The notes under the pieces were generated by a model that was not told where the DNA came from, made no database searches, and saw only the letters and a list, made by a program, of their open reading frames with translations. A DNA stretch of 64,000 nucleotides from Emticicia sp. 21SJ11W-3. Its GTDB lineage: Bacteria; Bacteroidota; Bacteroidia; Cytophagales; Spirosomataceae. Within the stretch, counting starts at the first letter, position 1; each line of letters opens with the position of its first letter. This document shows positions 11,708 to 24,989 of the stretch, one piece after another. Location of the stretch: the NCBI RefSeq assembly GCF_024138715.1, contig NZ_CP092074.1, positions 3,596,001-3,660,000 of the forward strand. The letters are read 5' to 3'. The translations under genes and the position numbers were made by a program.

Positions 11708-12647
11708 CTAGGTTATTGAAGATTCATTGCTTGGGCTACTTGTGAGTGTAATAATAGAAGGAGGCGTCTGGCTTATAATTCTCTGTATTCTCCCGTAATC
11801 GATTGCGCCGGTTTTCTGCCCATTCTGGCGTGCAGCCCCACTTTGGCAGGCATCAATTAAAATAATGCGCTTGCAGTCCAGGTCTTTAATATTATCAATC
11901 ACATCGTTCTGATAGCTAATAAGGGAATACCGGCTTATGGAAGCATTGGCATCACTTGTTTCCAGATAAAAATCATCAGAATCATTGAGGCTATTAATTC
12001 CATGCCCAGAAAAGAAGAGAATCAAAACGTCGTTTCGCCGCAAGCCCTGAAATTTGATTTTCTCAATAGTAGTAGCAATTTTTGCTTTCGTAGTGTTTTC
12101 CGGACAAACCAGAAGCTCACCTCTAACGGTCTGGAATAAACTGGCAAACTGTCCGTTGAAAATATTATAAATGCTTTCGGCATCTTTTTGGGTAAAGTTC
12201 AGATCAGAACTTACACCTACACTCACTATGTAGAGAGGTGGTTTTTCTTCACTAAGAAGATTAACTTCCAGTTTTTCACTAATCTTCCTGACTTGGCCAG
12301 GTATTGCCAACTCTATTTCAATGAAATTTTTGTCCTCGGGTAAATAAATCTGTTGAGAAACGAGGCAGTCGCGCTCTTTTTTCTGATTTCTCTTACACCT
12401 AAGTTTTTTTTACCTTCTTTCGTATCCACACCATTAACCAGAATCCTGAGGTGGTTTTTGACATCCTCCTCTTTCTGCGTTGTTTTATAATAAACTCAAG
12501 TTTCAACGATTCATTGTTAGTAAAAATAACACCATCGTTATACTTAATAGGGTTAGGATTTAACCATGTGACCTCGAGCTGATTAACGTTCTGAGAAAAG
12601 ACAAAACAGGAATTGAATACTAATAAGAATGAGAAAAGAGTTCGCAT
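11708..12647 (-). pseudogene. Secreted caspase-like (peptidase C14) protein, broken
   Basis: The gene starts at 12647 with a signal peptide (LFSFLLVFNSCFVFSQ) and a short beta-domain (LEVTWLNPNPIKYNDG). The frame shifts near 12480, after EFIIKQ, into KEEDVKNHLRILVNGVDTKE, and again near 12375 into DCLVSQQIYLPEDKNFIEIE, which runs on into the caspase core. The core (11708-12310) has both catalytic motifs: LILFFSGHG (His) and IILIDACQSG (Cys). The product stops early after TLTSSPSNESSIT, shorter than usual for the family. With two frameshifts and a probable 3' truncation it is a pseudogene. Its relatives are Bacteroidota metacaspase/caspase-like proteins, often of unknown role. Confidence 0.8.
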
Positions 12648-13188: not shown

Positions 13189-15093
13189 ATGAGCTCAATA
13201 TTTGGCATTATAAGTAAACATAGATTCGTCGAGCAACAGAAGTTACAAAATATGCAGGCCAGGCTGGATCATTGGGCGGCCGATGCGTCAGGGCTCTGGC
13301 AAAGTAACCGGGTTGGTCTCGGACATCTGATGCTTCACAACACGCCGGAATCACTTCATGAACATCTTCCGCTTTACAGCAAGGATACAGGATTGGCTAT
13401 AACTGCAGATGGTCGCATAGATAACCGCGAAGAACTGATAATAAAGCTTAACCTACCCCAGCATCCAAAGGATCAACCTGCGCCGGATAGTACACTCATA
13501 CTGGCAGCTTATGAAAAATATGGCGAAAACTGTGTAGACCATCTGATTGGCGATTTTGCATTTGCTATCTGGGATGAAAAAGCAGAAAAGTTATTCGTGG
13601 CGCGGGATCATATGGGTATCCGACCGCTTTATTATTATGAAGATGATGATTTATTTGCCTTTTCCTCTGAAATTAAAGGATTACTCGCAATTGGTATTAA
13701 CGAAGAAATCAACGAACTCTACCTTAAATATTTACTAGCTGGTCTTCACACCCGGGAAAAAACCTGCTATACATTTGTACAGAGGCTATGTGCAGCTCAT
13801 TGCCTGAGCCTGGAAAAAGGCAAAATAACTACCAGAAAATATTGGGAACTTGATACAACTAAAGAAACCATATTTAAAGACCCTGAACAATATGCAAAAA
13901 GGTTTTACGAATTGCTTGAGCAAGCTGTAAAATGCAGGACCAGATCGGCATTTCCGGTTGGTTTTGAGGTGAGTGGTGGTATGGACTCAACATCAATTGC
14001 CTGTATCGCGGCTAAACAACTCCATCTTGCCGGAAAAAGTACAATAGGAGTATCATTCCAAAGGCCGCCCGATCTTGAGTTTCCGGAATTAACTAACAAG
14101 GAGTCTTTCTATGTTGAGGAAGTAAGAAAATATGCGCCCCTTGATTATCTTGAAGTGTATATTGACGGAGATTATACGAGAGATTCGATTAATGAAATCA
14201 AGGTCAATTTGGAAAGGAATGACGGCCCCTGCTCTCATCTTGATATCGGATTCCTCCATATGAAGCAGTTAAGTCAGAAACACGGGGTACGCAGTATATT
14301 ATCAGGTTATTTGGGTGATCATATGGCTACCTGGTGGACTAAGCATCCCTTTTACCTGGAATATTTGTCTAAGTATAAGTTAATCCGTTATTTCAGGGAA
14401 GCCTGGAAAATGAAGCAGGTAAATTTTGCTACAAAACTCCTGTTGCGCGTAATACTTCAGAAGCTTTTTCCGGCATTTGTTTTATCGCTAGTGAGAAAAA
14501 AAAGAAATAACGACATTAAAAACTCCCCAACGAACCTGTTGCTGCCCCAATATTTCGATGAACTTGCCGCTGATATTGAGGATGATTTTTATAGATTGCC
14601 TAGCACTTTCAGAGAAATTCAGGTAAATGAAGCTACGAATGACTATTCATCGCAAAGAATGGAGGGAGAGATCCGATCTACAAAAGAGATGAAAATGGAA
14701 ATTGCGTATCCAATGGCCGATATAAGGCTTATAGAGTACGTACTAAGTGTCCCGGTTGAATATAAAGTGACCGCAGCAAATCGCCGAAAACTCTTTAGAG
14801 AGGCCATGGCTTACAAAATACCGGCATCTATTCTTAATAATCATCTTAAAATGGCGATTCCGGTAGGGAATACGACACGAAAATGGATGAAGCGGGCAGA
14901 AAGTATGCGAAGCTGGCTGAACGAATTGCCTGACCTAAATAATATCCTTCCCTACCTTAACAAAGACCTTTTTCTGGATGCCTATAAAGAAACCAGCATT
15001 GATGAACTGGAAAAAAGAATTTTATCTATGAAACTTCCGACTAAGCGAGTGGCGGAAAGCATAATTATTTGGAAATTAAAAAAAACTATGTAA
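13189..15093 (+). CDS. Lasso-peptide macrolactam synthetase (asparagine-synthetase-like, 'C' protein)
   Basis: A 634-residue AsnB-family protein. The start is ATG 13189 (MSSIFGIISKH) rather than the in-frame ATG ten codons upstream, because lasso C proteins begin in this way and, lacking the Cys-2 nucleophile, have no working glutaminase site. The N-terminal Ntn-like domain (LHEHLPLYS, ITADGRIDNREELI, VARDHMGIRPLYYYE) is followed by the ATP-pyrophosphatase domain with VGFEVSGGMDSTSIA (PP-loop, SGGMDS). In lasso biosynthesis this enzyme adenylates an Asp/Glu side chain and closes the ring onto the core N-terminus. The short gene at 15132 fits a precursor and B1/B2/kinase genes follow nearby, which supports a lasso role over housekeeping asparagine synthesis. 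Confidence 0.88.
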   Translation: MSSIFGIISKHRFVEQQKLQNMQARLDHWAADASGLWQSNRVGLGHLMLHNTPESLHEHLPLYSKDTGLAITADGRIDNREELIIKLNLPQHPKDQPAPDSTLILAAYEKYGENCVDHLIGDFAFAIWDEKAEKLFVARDHMGIRPLYYYEDDDLFAFSSEIKGLLAIGINEEINELYLKYLLAGLHTREKTCYTFVQRLCAAHCLSLEKGKITTRKYWELDTTKETIFKDPEQYAKRFYELLEQAVKCRTRSAFPVGFEVSGGMDSTSIACIAAKQLHLAGKSTIGVSFQRPPDLEFPELTNKESFYVEEVRKYAPLDYLEVYIDGDYTRDSINEIKVNLERNDGPCSHLDIGFLHMKQLSQKHGVRSILSGYLGDHMATWWTKHPFYLEYLSKYKLIRYFREAWKMKQVNFATKLLLRVILQKLFPAFVLSLVRKKRNNDIKNSPTNLLLPQYFDELAADIEDDFYRLPSTFREIQVNEATNDYSSQRMEGEIRSTKEMKMEIAYPMADIRLIEYVLSVPVEYKVTAANRRKLFREAMAYKIPASILNNHLKMAIPVGNTTRKWMKRAESMRSWLNELPDLNNILPYLNKDLFLDAYKETSIDELEKRILSMKLPTKRVAESIIIWKLKKTM

Positions 15094-15131
15094 ATTTATT
15101 AAAAAATTAGTACTAAATAAATATACATAAT

Positions 15132-15281
15132 ATGCAAGTAGATCCTAAAGAAAATCCTGATTCAGAAAAACCTGATTCAAAAAAGCTGTGGGTAGATCCC
15201 TCACTAACGATTATTCCAAGACAGGCTGTTCAAAGTGGCCCTACCCGTGGATCAGAAGATACTGATATATCACCATCCTGA
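15132..15281 (+). CDS. Putative lasso-peptide precursor (49 residues)
   Basis: A small gene starts at ATG 15132, 38 bases after the cyclase stop, and ends at TGA 15279-15281. The acidic N-terminus (DPKENPDSEKPDS) leads to KKLWVDPSLTIIPRQ, which fits the aromatic-x-x-P-x-L leader motif bound by RRE proteins (usually YxxPxL, here WVDPSL). The likely core is GPTRGSEDTDISPS: Gly1, with Glu7 or Asp8 as ring acceptor. The usual Thr at leader position -2 is absent (Gln here). The last residue is Ser, the residue phosphorylated by HPr-kinase-like enzymes in paeninodin-type lasso clusters, and such a kinase gene lies at 17315. Core boundary and ring size are inferred. Confidence 0.75.
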   Translation: MQVDPKENPDSEKPDSKKLWVDPSLTIIPRQAVQSGPTRGSEDTDISPS

Positions 15282-15306
15282 TTTTGGTGTTTAGTTTCTT
15301 CACTGT

Positions 15307-16278
15307 ATGATACCATACCACATTTCATTTAATACTATCGAAGGTGAAGTATTTTGGGTCGACATTGGCTTATCAAAATTTGATAAGCCATTTTTTGACC
15401 ATGTGATTGAGGATCATATCAGCATTTTAGAGGCAGGTCATAAGACCTTAACTACCTCTACTGAGACGCTTTTAAATTCAGCCTTACTTCTCCCTGCTGT
15501 TCCGCCATCTGGATTTGTTTTTCATGTATCACGCTGCGGCTCCACGCTTCTTTCAAATGCTTTGCAGCAAATTAAAGGAGCCACTGTTATATCCGAAGCC
15601 GGAATTTTAAACACATTATTTCAATCGTACTTACTTTCCAATTCTTTGGCAGATACACAGTTTTCCAAGGACAAGGTTAAGCAGTTTATACAATCGGTAG
15701 TCACCCTTCTGGGGCATTCACAAAGTGAATGCGATCGATTATTCATCAAATTCAGCAGTTGGAATATACTGTTCTTACCACTTATCCGGGAAATATGGCC
15801 GGATGTTCCCATAGCTTTTGCTTTTCGTGACCCTTTCCAGGTAGTGGAGTCGTTAATCCGTGCCAAACCGGGTTGGTCCAATTTGTTCCTAAATCCAGAA
15901 CTTGTTTCGGCTATGCTTCGCATCAACAAAAAAGAGGTAGCCACCTGGGCCTACATAGATTTTATTGTCAACATACTATCAGGAATTTACAATGCCGGAC
16001 AGGCTTTGGAACATAATGCGCTATTCATCCACTACAGCGAAGACAAAGTGCTACATATTAAGCAACTATTTGATCATTTCAATGTTAGCGCTGAAGAAAA
16101 CGAATGGGCCGCTATACGTTCCGGATGTAATATTTATTCAAAAGACCCAAATCGGTCTTCTCATTACTTACAAAACGTAATGGTGAGCAGTTTTGTGCTC
16201 AATGAACGTGTAATGTCACTTATAAAAACCAAACTTTGGGAAGATTACATGAAGCTGAAGTCATTCGTTTCTGTCTAA
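15307..16278 (+). CDS. Sulfotransferase-like P-loop protein of the lasso cluster
   Basis: A 323-residue protein. A PAPS-binding-type P-loop lies near residue 75 (FVFHVSRCGSTLLSNAL; SRCGST is the sulfotransferase signature), and a later segment FAFRDPFQVVESL matches the 3'-phosphate-binding 'RdP.....S' element. It begins 25 bases after the precursor stop, so it is co-transcribed with precursor and cyclase. Sulfotransferase-like genes recur with HPr-kinase-like genes in proteobacterial and Bacteroidota lasso loci. Transfer of sulfate or another group to the peptide is inferred, not shown. It converges on the cupin gene with 20 bases between stops. Confidence 0.75.
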   Translation: MIPYHISFNTIEGEVFWVDIGLSKFDKPFFDHVIEDHISILEAGHKTLTTSTETLLNSALLLPAVPPSGFVFHVSRCGSTLLSNALQQIKGATVISEAGILNTLFQSYLLSNSLADTQFSKDKVKQFIQSVVTLLGHSQSECDRLFIKFSSWNILFLPLIREIWPDVPIAFAFRDPFQVVESLIRAKPGWSNLFLNPELVSAMLRINKKEVATWAYIDFIVNILSGIYNAGQALEHNALFIHYSEDKVLHIKQLFDHFNVSAEENEWAAIRSGCNIYSKDPNRSSHYLQNVMVSSFVLNERVMSLIKTKLWEDYMKLKSFVSV

Positions 16279-16298
16279 CCTTAAACATGCTCAAATGT

Positions 16299-17318
16299 TC
16301 AGGCTATTGACACAATTTCTAATATTCCGTGCTTAATCAGCAACCTGATGCCTTGTACTAATGCCGGATCGTTAAACTTGCCAGGCAGTTCGCGTATCAT
16401 AATTTCCTCTGTTGTTAAAAGTTTGAGCAATAAGTCCTTTTGAGACAATGGGAAAGTTAATTTTGTGTCATAAAATTCTATTGTCACAAAGTCTTTGTGT
16501 TCAGTCAATGTAGGAGGTGGCTTCATACTACACCGCAGGCGGCTGTCTGGCGTAAGTTGCCTGTGATGTAATACATCGAAGAGGCGTCCCCTTGGTTCCA
16601 CAAAGTTCTTGTTCTGTAATTCGGCATCATGCAGTGAAAGTCCGATGCTGAGATGCAGCGAAGGTTCATCAACCGAGATCGCCTCGTGAATGAATCCACA
16701 GGGGAGGTAAAGCGTGTCACCCTGCTTTAAAGTAAATTCATGGCTCGGGGCGGTAGGTGTCCATTTGGCTCTATCAAACGGCTCATGAGGGCTGGCAACG
16801 GGCATATCATATAATTTCCAGACTTTTGAACCATATACCTGTATCACAATTATTTCGTGCATGTCGTAATGCGGCCTGAATGCCTTAGATGCTGATGGCG
16901 TTAAATAACCGTTGATATTCAACTTTGCCTGGAACTGTTGGGCCAAATTTTGAGACAGCGCATACAGGGATGGAAAAGCCAGGTTCATTTGTTGTCCTAC
17001 TACGGTGGAGCCATCGGCTAATAAACCAAATACTTTCCTGATATTAATTTTCTCAAGCGTCCTGTTACCAAAAGTACTTTGATTTACATAAAAGCTTGTG
17101 GGCAATTCCATGCCATCTTTCACAACTCTTATACTTGGATAAATCAGATCCTTTCGCTCCAGATAATCAGCCATGCTTTCAATGGACAGCAATTCTTTAA
17201 AAAAATCCGGTTGGTCGCGCTGAATAAGAAGCGGTTGGCGTTTAAAGAAATCGACATAGAAAGCTTTGGTTGTGACAGGAGCAATAAGCTGCTCGAAATT
17301 TTGCTGCATATAGTTCAT
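16299..17318 (-). CDS. JmjC/cupin-type Fe(II) oxygenase, RoxA-like, in the lasso cluster
   Basis: A 339-residue protein beginning MNYMQQNFEQL. The JmjC-like cupin fold shows a metal site with AFRPHYDMHEIIVIQVYGSK (HxD) and a distal His in LYLPCGFIHEAIS. The N-terminal segment FFKRQPLLIQRD is typical of cupin-4/ribosomal-oxygenase family members, which hydroxylate His, Arg or other side chains. Its ATG overlaps the stop of the kinase gene (ATGA, 17315-17318), showing translational coupling. In this context it is a candidate beta-hydroxylase of the lasso precursor or a partner of the kinase. That role is inferred. Confidence 0.75.
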   Translation of the reverse strand: MNYMQQNFEQLIAPVTTKAFYVDFFKRQPLLIQRDQPDFFKELLSIESMADYLERKDLIYPSIRVVKDGMELPTSFYVNQSTFGNRTLEKINIRKVFGLLADGSTVVGQQMNLAFPSLYALSQNLAQQFQAKLNINGYLTPSASKAFRPHYDMHEIIVIQVYGSKVWKLYDMPVASPHEPFDRAKWTPTAPSHEFTLKQGDTLYLPCGFIHEAISVDEPSLHLSIGLSLHDAELQNKNFVEPRGRLFDVLHHRQLTPDSRLRCSMKPPPTLTEHKDFVTIEFYDTKLTFPLSQKDLLLKLLTTEEIMIRELPGKFNDPALVQGIRLLIKHGILEIVSIA

Positions 17319-18238
17319 TTACTGTTCAACCTAGGTAAATAATGCATAACCTTTTCAACGAGCTGGGCAACAGTATTATCTGAACTTTTTCTAGATATCT
17401 CGTATACCGGAACCTTGGCAATAAGTGCCGAAATAGTTAAAAAATGCTGGCCGCGCATACCCATTGCATTGATCTGACCGGTCCGATAGGTTTGTGATTG
17501 AATTTTCATAAAGCTTGTCATTGGAGGCAGTGATTGAATGCTAACTTCTTCATTCCCGTTTTCAGCGGGGTTTAGCAGAAAAATTTTCAACACGGGCATT
17601 GAATCTGTCTGATAATTGGTGTGAATAAATTTTGAATACTTATTTACACCAGGTCTAATTTCCATGTCGGAGTCTGGCTTTCTAAGACCAAGCTTTTCAA
17701 AACTATCTTCCCAAAGCTTCATCATTGGGTATGTCGGTGATACTTTTACTTCATCAATTGCATTTTCGCACTTTAGTATACATACATCATCCGAAAAGAT
17801 TTGGTATCCTCTTGCCTGGAGTGAGGCAGCTATTGTTGACTTACCCGCGCCAGAATGTCCGCAAAACAAAACAACACCACCTTTGACACACACAGCTGAT
17901 GCATGCAGCATTATTTCATTCCGTTGGTGAAGTATCGCGGCCATAGCATTACTAAGCAAAAACAGTCGTACACTCTTTTCGTCAGATTCTTTGGAGGGGC
18001 TTACCACAATTGATTTTCCCGACGACACATAATAACGAGCCACGGGAAGCCAAAGCAAGTATTGATCAGGTGATATTGAGCAATTGCTTTTATGTACCAC
18101 TTTGTCACCTGCGATAGCCGATGGAGTTTCACCATAACTGATCTTTAAATCAGGTTCATCCACGAATTCGCGCGGAAGCAATTCGGGAAATTCCAACTCC
18201 GATTCAATATGAAGGCCGTAGCCCCAATAACGATACAT
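17315..18238 (-). CDS. HPr-kinase-like lasso-peptide tailoring kinase
   Basis: I place the start at ATG 18238 (MYRYWGYGLHIESELEF), the usual beginning of lasso-associated HprK homologues; an upstream in-frame start at 18286 is possible. The protein has about 307 residues. The kinase core has Walker A VVLFCGHSGAGKST, preceded by IMLHASAVCVKG, and the acidic pair GYQIFSDDVCIL as seen in HprK/P proteins. It is shorter than true HPr kinase and lacks its N-terminal domain. Relatives in paeninodin-type clusters phosphorylate the C-terminal Ser of the precursor, and the precursor here ends in Ser. It is the first gene of a minus-strand operon with the cupin gene. Confidence 0.82.
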   Translation of the reverse strand: MYRYWGYGLHIESELEFPELLPREFVDEPDLKISYGETPSAIAGDKVVHKSNCSISPDQYLLWLPVARYYVSSGKSIVVSPSKESDEKSVRLFLLSNAMAAILHQRNEIMLHASAVCVKGGVVLFCGHSGAGKSTIAASLQARGYQIFSDDVCILKCENAIDEVKVSPTYPMMKLWEDSFEKLGLRKPDSDMEIRPGVNKYSKFIHTNYQTDSMPVLKIFLLNPAENGNEEVSIQSLPPMTSFMKIQSQTYRTGQINAMGMRGQHFLTISALIAKVPVYEISRKSSDNTVAQLVEKVMHYLPRLNSK

Positions 18239-19219
18239 ATTAATTCTAACTTCGTCTAAAGTAAGTATTCGTTTTCTATTTAACAACTTCCATAAATGGG
18301 AATTGACCCATCCAATTATCCAATCAAGAACAGAACTGTTTTTCTGCGAAGGCTGGAATTAAATAACAAATAAACGGTGTCACGATTGAATATGGCAGAA
18401 ACTCAATAAGGCTCTTCTTTACAGCAGAGAGCCTTAAATTGTTGGTTATCAAACTCATAGTTTATATTTATTGTCAGTTCTAATCGATAATCTGTTAGAT
18501 TTGATATTGGGTCAATTACCCGCTTATACTATGAGTAAATATAAGTACTTTCTCGTAAGTAACCAATAGTAAAATAAAGTAAACTTACTTATCTATACGA
18601 CATTGAATAGCCTGTATGAAAATGGCATATAAATTTTGGGGGCAATAATTTTGTGAGTGCTTCCAATAATCCTCATCGGGAGCGTCGAATGCAACGCTTA
18701 GCGTTTTTTTCTGAACGCCCGATAACATAAGTTACTTCCGCAACTTTTTTGTTATGGCGCCCAAAAAGTGGTCGTGGGCGGCACTTACGGTTCTTTTCGA
18801 ATGCAAGTGGCTCGTAACGCTCATAAAGGCTACTGTACATAAAATCAAAATTGCTGTTATCGATAAATAACAATCCGGACACATTTAATTTAGCATCTAG
18901 GAATATGAGCCTTCCAATTACCTTTTCGAAGGTCACGCTTACCGCCATTGGCGATACCAATATCAAACCTTTATTGACCCGAATGTCTGACCTGAATATA
19001 CCACTTAAAAGAAGTGTAAGGTCGTTCATTATAGAGACAAATAAATTAAACGCTTTACTATTCCTTTTTCCTAAACGAAAATATGCAAGATTATGATATT
19101 ACACCCTCGGCAAAAGCATTCTTATCTAAGACCAGAGATATAATTCAAAAAATTATTTATTGCAAGTAATTATACTATCTTTTGATTATACTATCTTTAA
19201 AGATTAAAATTAAGGAATA
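18239..19219. other. 980-bp gene-poor gap inside the lasso locus
   Basis: This interval separates the kinase start from the B1 gene, and I find no intact gene in it. An 8-bp stem (AAGGCTCT 18408-18415, AGAGCCTT 18428-18435) could be a terminator. From about 18650 to 19170 several plus-strand frames give short protein-like pieces, such as VMAPKKWSWAALTVLFECKW near 18755 and DITPSAKAFLSKTRDIIQKI near 19095. They suggest a decayed plus-strand gene upstream of B1. A minus-strand open frame at 18673-19029 covers the same bases but looks like no known family. The promoters for the kinase and for B1 should lie here. Confidence 0.35.
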
Positions 19220-19498
19220 ATGATCACTCCTCAATCTCTGATCATACGGAATGACCAGCAGTTCCTGACAAGCGAACTTAGTAATGAACTCCTTATGATG
19301 AACCTGGATACTGGCAATTATATACTTCTAAATGAAGTAAGTGCCGATGTCTGGAAATTGCTCGAACAACCCCTACGTGCTGAAAGCATTGTTGATAAAC
19401 TGGTAGATATTTACACCATTTCAAAAGAGGATTGCTTGCAGAAAACATTTCTTTTCTTGAAGGAAATGGCAGATAATGAACTGGTGTCTGTCCGGTAA
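19220..19498 (+). CDS. PqqD-like RRE protein (lasso B1)
   Basis: A 92-residue PqqD-family protein. ELLMMNLDTGNYILLNEVSADVWKLLE is the characteristic PqqD/RRE segment, cited here as the pieces LLMMNLDTGNYILLNEVS and ADVWKLLE. It is followed by a helical part ending ELVSVR. In split-B lasso systems B1 binds the leader through this fold and hands the precursor to the B2 protease. The stop lies two bases before the start of the decayed B2 gene. The protein itself looks intact. Confidence 0.85.
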   Translation: MITPQSLIIRNDQQFLTSELSNELLMMNLDTGNYILLNEVSADVWKLLEQPLRAESIVDKLVDIYTISKEDCLQKTFLFLKEMADNELVSVR

Positions 19499-19499
19499 T

Positions 19500-19960
19500 A
19501 TGCTTAAAAATACCTTTAGGAAAACCGTAGGTTTTCTTGAATCCCTTTTTCATTAAAGCTGCTATTTATTGAAGCATTCCTGACCTCCGGGTGGGTGAAA
19601 CTTACGCTTATATTTTTCGAGCCAGGCAGGTTGGCAGGGGGGCGCGAACTTTGGAACTCCTGCAGATACTGACCCAGCAACTTTGGAACTCAGAAAGCAG
19701 GCGGATCTCGTACTTGGTCTTGGTAATAGTTATGCCCCCTGGCCTGCTGAATGTTATACCCGTGCGCTTACAGGTAAACTGCTTCTTAAAAGAAGAACGA
19801 TTGATTCTACTCTATAGATTGGGTTAAAAAAGATGATAGCGGTAATTACAAGGGACATGCCTGGTTGCGCTCCCGAGATACTTATACTACCGGATAATAC
19901 CAGGCCCAGGAATTGAGCATAAATTATATATTCAGTTAATGTTTACTTAATCTGAAGTAG
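19500..19960 (+). pseudogene. Decayed lasso leader peptidase (B2, transglutaminase-like)
   Basis: The start ATG at 19500 gives MLKNTFRKTVGFLESLFH and then TAA. Pieces of a B2 protein follow in changing frames: FIKAAIY, EAFLTSGWVKLTLIFF, LELRKQADLV, then PWPAECYTRALTGKLLLKRR with the catalytic Cys, IDSTLY, and KKDDSGNYKGHAWLRS with the catalytic His. The order and the W-x3-C ... STLY ... GHAWL pattern are those of lasso B2 transglutaminase-like proteases. At least four frame disruptions are needed to read it, for example at about 19555, 19650, 19715 and 19815. The cluster therefore seems to lack its own leader peptidase unless one acts in trans. The exact 3' end cannot be fixed. Confidence 0.78.
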
Positions 19961-20316: not shown

Positions 20317-21713
20317 GAGACTGTAAATTAAACTGTGTCAAGGTAAAATTTAGCTAAAATGTTAATTTTACTTTAAACACAGTTTTTTTATGGAACAGAA
20401 TGAAGAATTCGAGCGGGTCGCCGCTGCGATTTGAAGAGTTTAAAAGGCAAGCAATTGCAGGGATGTATGCTGGGAAACCTTTTAGTGGAGAGAAAGGGAT
20501 TTTTGCACCTTTAATGAAACATTTCTTGGAGGCCGCCTTAGCTGGGGAATTAGAAAATCATCTGTCAGAATCAAAAGCAAAAGGGGTAGCTAATCGTAAA
20601 AATGGAAAGACACAAAAGCAGGTAAAGAGTTTATCAGGAGAATTTGAACTGGAGAGTAACAGAGACCGTTCAGGGACTTTTGAGCCTATGATTTTACCTA
20701 AGAGACAGGTAATCATTACAGAAGAACTTGAAGCTAAAGTTATAGGATTGTATGGTTTAGGCATGTCTACCAGAGATATATCTTCACATATCAAGGAGTT
20801 ATATCAAATGGATATTTCAGCTACCCAGTTATCAACGATTACAGACAAAGTAATTCCAGCCATGCAGGAATGGCGTAGCAGACCTTTAGAGAGCATCTAC
20901 CCTATTGTTTTTATGGATTGCATACATTATAAAGTTAAGGAAGATGGGAGAGTGGTTTCGCGAGATATATACAACATCTTAGGAGTAGATTTAGAGGGGA
21001 AAAAAGATTTAATAGGTATGTACGTGGCTGAAACCGAAGGTGCCAAGTTCTGGCTTTCTGTTTTAACAGACTTAAAACGAAGAGGTGTAGATGATATCTT
21101 AATTGCATGCATTGATGGACTAAAAGGCTTTCCTGAAGCTATAGCTACTATATATCCCCAAACTCAAATACAACTTTGTATTGTCCATCAGATAAGGAAT
21201 AGTTTAAAATACGTTCCTGAAAAGGATAAAAAGGCTTTTATAGCTGACCTTAAACTTGTGTATACTGCTCTAAACAAAGAAGAGGGTTTTAGACAATTAG
21301 AGGCTTTAGAAGCTAAATGGGGCAAGAAATACATCATTGCTGTTCAATCCTGGTTTACTAACTGGGAAAACCTATCAAGCTTCTATGAGTATGCAGAAGA
21401 CATTAGAAGATTGATTTATACGACAAACCCTATTGAGGGTTTTCATAGGCAAGTCAGAAAAGTCACTAAAACTAAAGGCTCATTTACATCAGATACAGCA
21501 CTTTTGAAACTGATTTATCTGGTCGTACAAAGAATCTCCCAAAAGTGGACGGGGTCGCCCAGACTATGCCTGTCCGAAATTGGAGTGTCACCTTATCGCA
21601 GTTATACATTATTTTTGGAGATAGAATGAAATTCCATAATTTTGAAAAAACTCACTTGAAGCCAACTCCAAGTGAGTAGTAAAAATCCTTGACACAGTTC
21701 AGTTTACGCTCCC
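20317..21713 (+). mobile_element. IS256-family element, copy A
   Basis: This 1,397-bp element has imperfect 27-bp terminal inverted repeats: the left end begins GAGACTGTAAATTAAACTGT and the right end (complement) GGGAGCGTAAACTGAACTGT, both continuing GTCAAGG. A short tail repeat (CACTTGAAGCCAACTCCAAGTG) near the right end forms a hairpin. It shares all but a few bases of the transposase with copy B (23593-24989). No target duplication is visible. Confidence 0.9.
20400..21629 (+). CDS. IS256-family transposase, copy A (frame altered at both ends)
   Basis: This mutator-type (IS256) DDE transposase is read as 409 residues from ATG 20400. Catalytic residues lie in VFMDCIHYKV (D), IACIDGLKGF (D) and NPIEGFHRQVRK (E). 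The family start is probably ATG 20390 (MEQNEEFE), but a 16-base GC-rich insert (GCGGGTCGCCGCTGCG, about 20413-20428) brings that frame to TGA. Removing it restores MEQNEEFEFEEFKRQ, matching copy C. Near 21550 a second, 14-base insert (GGGGTCGCCCAGAC) changes the usual C-terminus WTMPVRNWSVTLSQLYIIFG into WTGSPRLCLSEIG and so on. Asp replaces Ala in the segment SRDIYN relative to the other copies. Activity is doubtful unless the inserts are bypassed. Confidence 0.85.
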   Translation: MKNSSGSPLRFEEFKRQAIAGMYAGKPFSGEKGIFAPLMKHFLEAALAGELENHLSESKAKGVANRKNGKTQKQVKSLSGEFELESNRDRSGTFEPMILPKRQVIITEELEAKVIGLYGLGMSTRDISSHIKELYQMDISATQLSTITDKVIPAMQEWRSRPLESIYPIVFMDCIHYKVKEDGRVVSRDIYNILGVDLEGKKDLIGMYVAETEGAKFWLSVLTDLKRRGVDDILIACIDGLKGFPEAIATIYPQTQIQLCIVHQIRNSLKYVPEKDKKAFIADLKLVYTALNKEEGFRQLEALEAKWGKKYIIAVQSWFTNWENLSSFYEYAEDIRRLIYTTNPIEGFHRQVRKVTKTKGSFTSDTALLKLIYLVVQRISQKWTGSPRLCLSEIGVSPYRSYTLFLEIE

Positions 21714-23592: not shown

Positions 23593-24989
23593 GAGACTGT
23601 AAATTAAACTGTGTCAAGGTAAAATTTAGCTAAAATGTTAATTTTACTTTAAACACAGTTTTTTTATGGAACAGAATGAAGAATTCGAGCGGGTCGCCGC
23701 TGCGATTTGAAGAGTTTAAAAGGCAAGCAATTGCAGGGATGTATGCTGGGAAACCTTTTAGTGGAGAGAAAGGGATTTTTGCACCTTTAATGAAACATTT
23801 CTTGGAGGCCGCCTTAGCTGGGGAATTAGAAAATCATCTGTCAGAATCAAAAGCAAAAGGGGTATCTAATCGTAAAAATGGAAAGACACAAAAGCAGGTA
23901 AAGAGCTTATCAGGAGAATTTGAACTGGAGAGTAACAGAGACCGTTCAGGGACTTTTGAGCCTATGATTTTACCTAAGAGACAGGTAATCATTACAGAAG
24001 AACTTGAAGCTAAAGTTATAGGATTGTATGGTTTAGGCATGTCTACCAGAGATATATCTTCACATATCAAGGAGTTATATCAAATGGATATTTCAGCTAC
24101 CCAGTTATCAACGATTACAGACAAAGTAATTCCAGCCATGCAGGAATGGCGTAGCAGACCTTTAGAGAGCATCTACCCTATTGTTTTTATGGATTGCATA
24201 CATTATAAAGTTAAGGAAGATGGGAGAGTGGTTTCGCGAGCAATATACAACATCTTAGGAGTAGATTTAGAGGGGAAAAAAGATTTAATAGGTATGTACG
24301 TGGCTGAAACCGAAGGTGCCAAGTTCTGGCTTTCTGTTTTAACAGACTTAAAACGAAGAGGTGTAGATGATATCTTAATTGCATGCATTGATGGACTAAA
24401 AGGCTTTCCTGAAGCTATAGCTACTATATATCCCCAAACTCAAATGCAACTTTGTATTGTCCATCAGATAAGGAATAGTTTAAAATACGTTCCTGAAAAG
24501 GATAAAAAGGCTTTTATAGCTGACCTTAAACTTGTGTATACTGCTCTAAACAAAGAAGAGGGTTTTAGACAATTAGAGGCTTTAGAAGCTAAATGGGGCA
24601 AGAAATACATCATTGCTGTTCAATCCTGGTTTACTAACTGGGAAAACCTATCAAGCTTCTATGAGTATGCAGAAGACATTAGAAGATTGATTTATACGAC
24701 AAACCCTATTGAGGGTTTTCATAGGCAAGTCAGAAAAGTCACTAAAACTAAAGGCTCATTTACATCAGATACAGCACTTTTGAAACTGATTTATCTGGTC
24801 GTACAAAGAATCTCCCAAAAGTGGACGGGGTCGCCCAGACTATGCCTGTCCGAAATTGGGGTGTTACACTATCACAGTTGTACATCATTTTTGGCGATAG
24901 ATTGAAATTTCATAATTTTGAAAAAACTCACTTGAAGCCAACTCCAAGTGAGTAGTAAAAATCCTTGACACAGTTCAGTTTACGCTCCC
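23593..24989 (+). mobile_element. IS256-family element, copy B
   Basis: It has the same length and ends as copy A and is in direct orientation to it, 1.88 kb downstream. The transposase part differs from copy A at only a few bases, but the last 75 bases of the gene carry about ten substitutions. No target duplication is seen at the flanks (…CCGAAAATA and TGATAAGTT…), consistent with recombination between copies after insertion. Confidence 0.9.
23676..24905 (+). CDS. IS256-family transposase, copy B (frame altered at both ends)
   Basis: The 409-residue frame is like copy A, with the DDE residues intact and the usual SRAIYN segment. It carries the same 16-base 5' insert (about 23689-23704) and the 14-base 3' insert (about 24827-24840). 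Downstream of the 3' insert the annotated frame ends VLHYHSCTSFLAID, very different from copy A, while the hidden frame gives NWGVTLSQLYIIFGDRL, almost the same as copy A. The nucleotide changes are therefore nearly all silent in the hidden frame. Confidence 0.85.
   Translation: MKNSSGSPLRFEEFKRQAIAGMYAGKPFSGEKGIFAPLMKHFLEAALAGELENHLSESKAKGVSNRKNGKTQKQVKSLSGEFELESNRDRSGTFEPMILPKRQVIITEELEAKVIGLYGLGMSTRDISSHIKELYQMDISATQLSTITDKVIPAMQEWRSRPLESIYPIVFMDCIHYKVKEDGRVVSRAIYNILGVDLEGKKDLIGMYVAETEGAKFWLSVLTDLKRRGVDDILIACIDGLKGFPEAIATIYPQTQMQLCIVHQIRNSLKYVPEKDKKAFIADLKLVYTALNKEEGFRQLEALEAKWGKKYIIAVQSWFTNWENLSSFYEYAEDIRRLIYTTNPIEGFHRQVRKVTKTKGSFTSDTALLKLIYLVVQRISQKWTGSPRLCLSEIGVLHYHSCTSFLAID

Follow-up and report, generated by a model that had tools for sequence, protein, structure and literature searches.

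A probable kinase-type lasso-peptide locus with an unusual tailoring set and a broken leader peptidase in Emticicia sp. 21SJ11W-3

In the genome of Emticicia sp. 21SJ11W-3 (a single contig of 5.18 Mb) a lasso-type cyclase gene and a short precursor gene lie beside a kinase, a candidate sulfotransferase and a candidate oxygenase, raising the question of whether these genes form a lasso-peptide pathway and whether a product can still be made by it. The analysis covers the window, by which is meant the whole 64,000-nt stretch of DNA, and positions below are window positions. An initial annotation had reported adjacent cyclase, precursor, sulfotransferase-like, cupin, kinase and PqqD-type genes; all are open frames where it placed them, and its description of a lasso-type gene set is confirmed. 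They form three units, cyclase–precursor–sulfotransferase-like gene (C, A and ST1, + strand), kinase–oxygenase (K and JmjC, − strand), and a putative leader-binding protein followed by a broken peptidase (B1 and B2, + strand). The reading that we favor, with moderate confidence, is that the locus, though diverged, genuinely belongs with the kinase-type lasso-peptide clusters, and that its tailoring set is new and its peptidase broken.

Cyclase and precursor

The cyclase gene (13189..15093, + strand) encodes 634 residues with an SGGMDS PP-loop, and the protein starts MSS, without an N-terminal Cys. It scores 405 bits on the lasso model NF033535 (cut-off 525) versus 234 bits on the asparagine synthase model TIGR01536 (cut-off 267), and in each of two trees the three AsnB proteins included branch together (support 100/100), apart from the window cyclase. 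An identity as housekeeping AsnB was set aside because of the profile scores, the missing N-terminal Cys and the separation in the trees, with the caution that an approximately unbiased (AU) test gives p 0.246 for the alternative grouping; the AsnB-like phylogeny that the initial annotation had named as fatal to its proposal did not appear. In the larger tree the window cyclase pairs with that of another surveyed locus, L011 (97/96; loci are numbered with the prefix L), a pairing that is not resolved in the smaller tree. When genome contigs were scanned with the window cyclase alone no relative was found; a scan with an alignment of seven cyclases yielded, as its best 80 matches among more that existed, 79 distinct loci, and Mucilaginibacter sp. 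E4BP6 (L187), whose cyclase is in neither tree, ranked first among these 80; no kinase (49% identity) or cyclase (37%) nearer to those of the window was found. The putative leader-binding protein B1 (19220..19498, + strand, 92 residues) is a PqqD-type RiPP recognition element (RRE; RiPP, ribosomally synthesized and post-translationally modified peptide), scoring 49 bits on PF05402, over its cut-off, and 62 bits on the lasso PqqD model NF033536 (cut-off 80); the B1 of locus L188 is 41% identical to it.

The precursor (15132..15281, + strand) has 49 residues, a leader with W20-x-x-P23-x-L25 and a C-terminal Ser49; it thus carries the W/YxxP leader motif, together with an Asp or Glu at core position 7–9. 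A homologous precursor sits beside the related Mucilaginibacter cyclase, where the initial annotation had taken the lack of one as grounds for dismissal, and the leader comparison with Bacteroidota precursors that it proposed gives the same spacing and the same junction in both: 11 of the 25 residues that align without gaps from the leader Trp onward are identical, including the junction AVQSG, and the distance from Trp to AVQSG is equal. When the L187 residues behind WKSP were shuffled 100000 times, 11 identities were reached in 3 cases, in a test for which this pair was picked after the likeness had been seen. The motif was also counted across loci, and beside cyclases it is commoner than chance would give. 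Of 390 genomes in the order, 60 (this genome among them) have a match to a kinase profile, and a cyclase lies within the stretch in 35 of the 72 kinase loci surveyed; with the other 37 lacking one, a kinase match alone was rejected as a marker of lasso loci. Open reading frames (ORFs) with W-x-x-P make up 74 of 844 small intergenic ORFs in the 35 loci with a cyclase (present in 22 of them), 8 of 568 in the 37 without, and 1 of 479 in a set of 24 loci retrieved on account of ST1 or JmjC; five of the eight fall in L113, L115 and L126, which are probably lasso loci. An earlier count (82/703 in 26 loci vs 3/753 in 45) was replaced by the 35-locus survey, which is the fair one because the loci of the earlier count had been chosen for having candidates; the window's own precursor was left out of both.

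The core is likely SGPTRGSEDTDISPS (residues 35–49, 15 residues), with Val at −2 and a putative ring from Ser1 to Glu8. Glu42 is the likely acceptor, for a ring of eight residues from Ser35 or of seven if the core starts at Gly36, and it is favored because the L187 precursor keeps the matching Glu and has Gly in place of D43. The lean to Ser35, which falls short of proof, rests on Val(−2) and on the Glu kept in L187, whose precursor would have to form a ring of seven residues if its core began at Gly. Replacement of Thr(−2) by Ile or Val is reported for kinase-encoding lasso clusters in excerpts of PMC10368454. The 14-residue core of the initial annotation, starting at Gly36 with Glu7 or Asp8 as acceptor, therefore probably stands as regards Glu42 and probably not as regards its start; likewise the typical Thr at −2 is indeed absent, probably in favor of Val, a reported substitute. 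The short tail that it had singled out as odd is not peculiar to this locus, since by the same rule the L114 and L116 precursors give 13-residue cores.

The kinase and the C-terminal serine

The HprK-like kinase gene (17315..18238, − strand) is assigned its ATG at 18238 by homology, a longer frame to a TTG at 18286 being possible. The protein scores 28 bits on Hpr_kinase_C (cut-off 33) and is under the cut-offs of the HprK models, and it keeps the His, the P-loop Lys and the Asp-Asp (LHASA, GHSGAGKS and SDD in the alignment). In the portions sampled, PMC8498205 describes lasso kinases acting on a C-terminal Ser, and PMC9266682 names a His, a Lys and two Asp as catalytic in them. With these residues and Ser49 in place, the pairing of the kinase with a Ser-ending precursor in the initial annotation appears sound. 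The kinase of L014, in this same genome, has Lys in the His column.

A C-terminal Ser is found in 42 of the 74 motif ORFs in the 35 cyclase loci, and in 34 of 36 once three loci of one genus (L119, L120, L122) are excluded, compared with a background of 48 of 479 small ORFs. In those three loci only 8 of 38 end in Ser, so that a rule by which every kinase locus has a C-terminal Ser was rejected. They hold arrays of 11 to 14 lasso-like precursors (L119:1011-5152, L120:14766-19605, L122:779-7548), mostly not ending in Ser; the five L122 precursors nearer the kinase all do. Within the Emticicia genome, a C-terminal Ser is present in 14 of the 15 precursor-like ORFs (one each in the window, L010 and L013, two in L014, four in L012 and five in L185, the last lying ~6 kb from the L185 cyclase), and the single one of L113 ends in Tyr.

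The tailoring set

The unusual part of the locus is its tailoring set, in which K overlaps a JmjC oxygenase gene and the candidate sulfotransferase belongs to a family whose other members are found near 2-oxoglutarate (2OG) hydroxylases. The oxygenase (16299..17318, − strand), the cupin of the initial annotation, matches JmjC_2 (PF08007) with 84 bits (cut-off 22) and has the HxD...H required of such enzymes; its start codon shares four bases (ATGA) with the stop of K. Its nearest solved relatives are MINA53 and NO66, with HYD and the later H aligned, followed by the ribosomal L16 Arg hydroxylase. Relatives at E 1e-15 occur in 6 of the 389 other genomes searched, at seven loci. One (L074) is a lasso locus that also has further 2OG oxygenases and in which the JmjC gene is ~2 kb from B1; L070, L071 and L072 have NHLP-family precursors near JmjC_2 (one of the six tested fell just under the cut-off), L069 (7265-10667) has a FlmA-family RiPP precursor near its JmjC_2 oxygenase, L068 has two similar small peptides near JmjC (one was tested, with no match), and at L073 no RiPP precursor was seen. 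Among the 79 loci of the cyclase scan, a Calothrix locus (L247) is the sole case of a JmjC_2 gene, placed between lasso precursors and K. Arg was considered as the JmjC target and is a weak candidate: it is present in the ring of the window core and of the Calothrix precursor and absent from the likely core of L074. As far as excerpts of the literature go, there are bacterial relatives, in RiPP-like settings, of PF08007 proteins with RRE-like folds (PMC12710340), BipG is a JmjC RiPP hydroxylase of biphenomycin (PMC12707348), and no JmjC enzyme is named in a lasso cluster.

ST1 (15307..16278, + strand) starts ~26 nt past the precursor stop. It scores 21.5 bits on Sulfotransfer_3 (cut-off 27), and a profile built from its family finds the sulfotransferase 5x2b with E 0.0018. 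Across eight relatives F.FH.SRCGSTLL and R.P..V..S are invariant; of these, SRCGSTLL and R.P..V..S are what we take to be motifs for 3'-phosphoadenosine 5'-phosphosulfate (PAPS). Relatives at 23–35% identity occur in 18 of the 221 other genomes of the family, and in 17 of their 20-kb stretches (the short contig L064 was left out, the listed stretches are 12 of the 17, and Pfam names were taken from the L058 and L052 members) a sulfotransferase family is present in 16, an Asp/Asn beta-hydroxylase family in 15, APS kinase in 12 and tail-collar proteins in 10. A cassette that recurs in this bacterial family with varying content, an ST1-type sulfotransferase with an Asp/Asn beta-hydroxylase and often APS kinase, is seen in L051, L052, L054, L055, L057-L061, L063, L065 and L067; it can also include PhyH, a gene resembling formyltransferases, as many as three tail-collar proteins and a large protein, which in L055, the one tested, has a type IX secretion system (T9SS) sorting tail.

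The combination of tailoring genes had been called uncommon, and the survey agrees: nine related loci pair K with another type of sulfotransferase (ST2), the gene adjoining or overlapping K in L010, L011, L014, L074, L117, L119, L120, L122 and L125. An ST2-type gene is also present in 6 of the 79 loci of the cyclase-alignment scan, the one in L252 being without a kinase match. The Emticicia genome has one APS kinase, and its tail-collar proteins are found only at 0.92 Mb; tandem tail-collar genes lie beside or inside kinase–sulfotransferase lasso loci at L010:13641-17455, L011:13591-17327 and L187:4722-6487. Tyr is absent from the likely cores of the window, L010, L011 and L014. Sulfation, if it is on the core, would accordingly be at Ser, at Thr or at a residue that has been hydroxylated, and sulfation of a peptide at a residue other than Tyr is for this reason directly testable at these four loci. 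Published work has pointed out sulfotransferase genes in lasso clusters without assigning them a role (portions of PMC8498205 and PMC4289311); no sulfated lasso peptide is described in the literature sampled, and the sampled part of the review PMC9266682 does not mention sulfation.

The broken peptidase, rival explanations and known systems

The B2 peptidase at the locus is a relic (about 19532..19936, + strand). It scores 29 bits on NF033537 with one TAG inside, and its coding sequence is split between two frames, with an additional in-frame stop close to the 3' end. The intact B2 of L187 aligns to the middle of the relic with 53% identity over residues 40–112 of the L187 protein in one frame, and with 35% over its residues 10–147 in another. 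Just downstream are two nearly identical Mutator-type (IS256-like) transposase genes (20400-21629 and 23676-24905), and upstream of the cyclase is a caspase-like (Peptidase_C14) open frame at 11708-12310 (34 bits). Seven scattered lasso-type loci (L010, L012, L013, L014, L113, L185 and the window) give the genome six cyclases, five kinases and three PqqD-type B1 proteins, a fourth PqqD lying at 1.19 Mb. Only one B2 is over the cut-off, intact and in L010 at 0.92 Mb, besides two low-scoring matches to Transglut_core3 (20 and 16 bits). Since the local B2 is broken, either the B2 at 0.92 Mb cuts the leader in trans or the product has ceased to be made. No B2 was found near the cyclase loci L012, L013, L014 and L185; either one B2 therefore serves many loci or several are idle, and this genome is well suited to asking whether one B2 serves several separate lasso loci.

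That the locus is a decaying remnant, which makes nothing and whose other genes are open only since the loss of B2 is recent, is possible though unlikely. The frame changes and stop in B2 and the transposase genes at 20400 and 23676 would fit such decay, as would L113, a kinase locus with the Tyr-ending precursor-like ORF and without the B1 and B2 that are present in its syntenic relative L115; against it, the six other genes are open, and the intact B2 at 0.92 Mb, together with the four loci that likewise have none nearby, makes sharing in trans plausible. It is very unlikely that the frame changes arose in assembly and that the cluster is in fact complete: single-base runs of six do lie near the frame changes, but run-length errors alone do not explain the further stop near the 3' end. 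Insertion, with ST1 and perhaps JmjC serving another substrate, seems to us rather doubtful. It would account for the relatives of ST1 in stretches with hydroxylase, APS kinase and tail-collar families and no lasso cyclase, and for the lack of an ST1-type gene in every other lasso locus, both among those surveyed and among the 79 of the cyclase scan; ST1 is nevertheless on the same strand as the precursor and close behind it, JmjC overlaps K, and JmjC recurs in two other lasso loci (L074 and L247).

Other points count against the favored reading of a real, diverged kinase-type locus. The cyclase is under the curated cut-off of its lasso model, the kinase under those of HprK and B1 under that of lasso PqqD; profile support for ST1 is weak; the AU test does not reject a grouping of the cyclase with AsnB, on long branches; and the precursor has no NCBIfam match at E 1, the paeninodin family NF033524 included. 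The W..P rule finds no precursor in 13 of the 35 surveyed cyclase loci, and 24 hand-picked precursors fit a Gly1 start (21/24) and the [TIV](−2) rule with an acceptor at 7–9 (22/24) almost equally. The lasso kinase BsfK acts on Ser3 according to excerpts of PMC10368454, the L074 precursor has no Arg in its likely core despite a JmjC gene 2 kb away, and B2 is broken in cis, so that the locus may be dying.

If the locus is active, we infer the following steps, in an order that is itself conjectural. B1 would bind the W-x-x-P leader and present the linear precursor; K would phosphorylate Ser49; JmjC would hydroxylate one core residue, with R39, the sole Arg of the core, as leading guess; and ST1, with PAPS as donor, would sulfate a Ser, a Thr or the hydroxyl so formed. 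B2, acting in trans from 0.92 Mb, would then cut the leader after Gln34, leaving Val at −2, and C would close Ser35 to Glu42, with a seven-residue tail remaining. The full outcome, a triply tailored lasso peptide with a C-terminal phosphoserine, a ring hydroxyl made by JmjC and a sulfate carried by Ser, by Thr or by the same hydroxyl, in which a hydroxylase–sulfotransferase pair of a kind otherwise seen in non-lasso ST1 cassettes is joined to one B2 serving scattered loci, is distinctly unlikely in all its parts.

Among known systems, described here from excerpts of the cited papers, BipG (PMC12707348) is likewise a JmjC oxygenase acting on a RiPP precursor; it differs in acting on arginase-made ornithine, and biphenomycin is not a lasso peptide. 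The bsf cluster of Bradymonas (PMC10368454) is also a kinase cluster, with an Ile(−2) leader and Ile or Val(−2) in its relatives, but its kinase acts on Ser3 and its peptide ends in Asp. With the kinase-type clusters of paeninodin and SyanK (PMC8498205, PMC9266682) the locus shares split B1 and B2, an HprK-like kinase, a Ser-ending precursor and a cyclase, whereas its local B2 is broken, JmjC and a different type of sulfotransferase are added, and the paeninodin model misses its precursor. The cluster of Mucilaginibacter sp. E4BP6 (L187:7874-12690) has a Sulfotransfer_1 enzyme (Pfam) after K and an intact B2, with no match to JmjC or ST1 in the stretch; it resembles the window in K (49% identity), C (37%) and B1 (37%), and in its AVQSG junction, C-terminal Ser and related B2.

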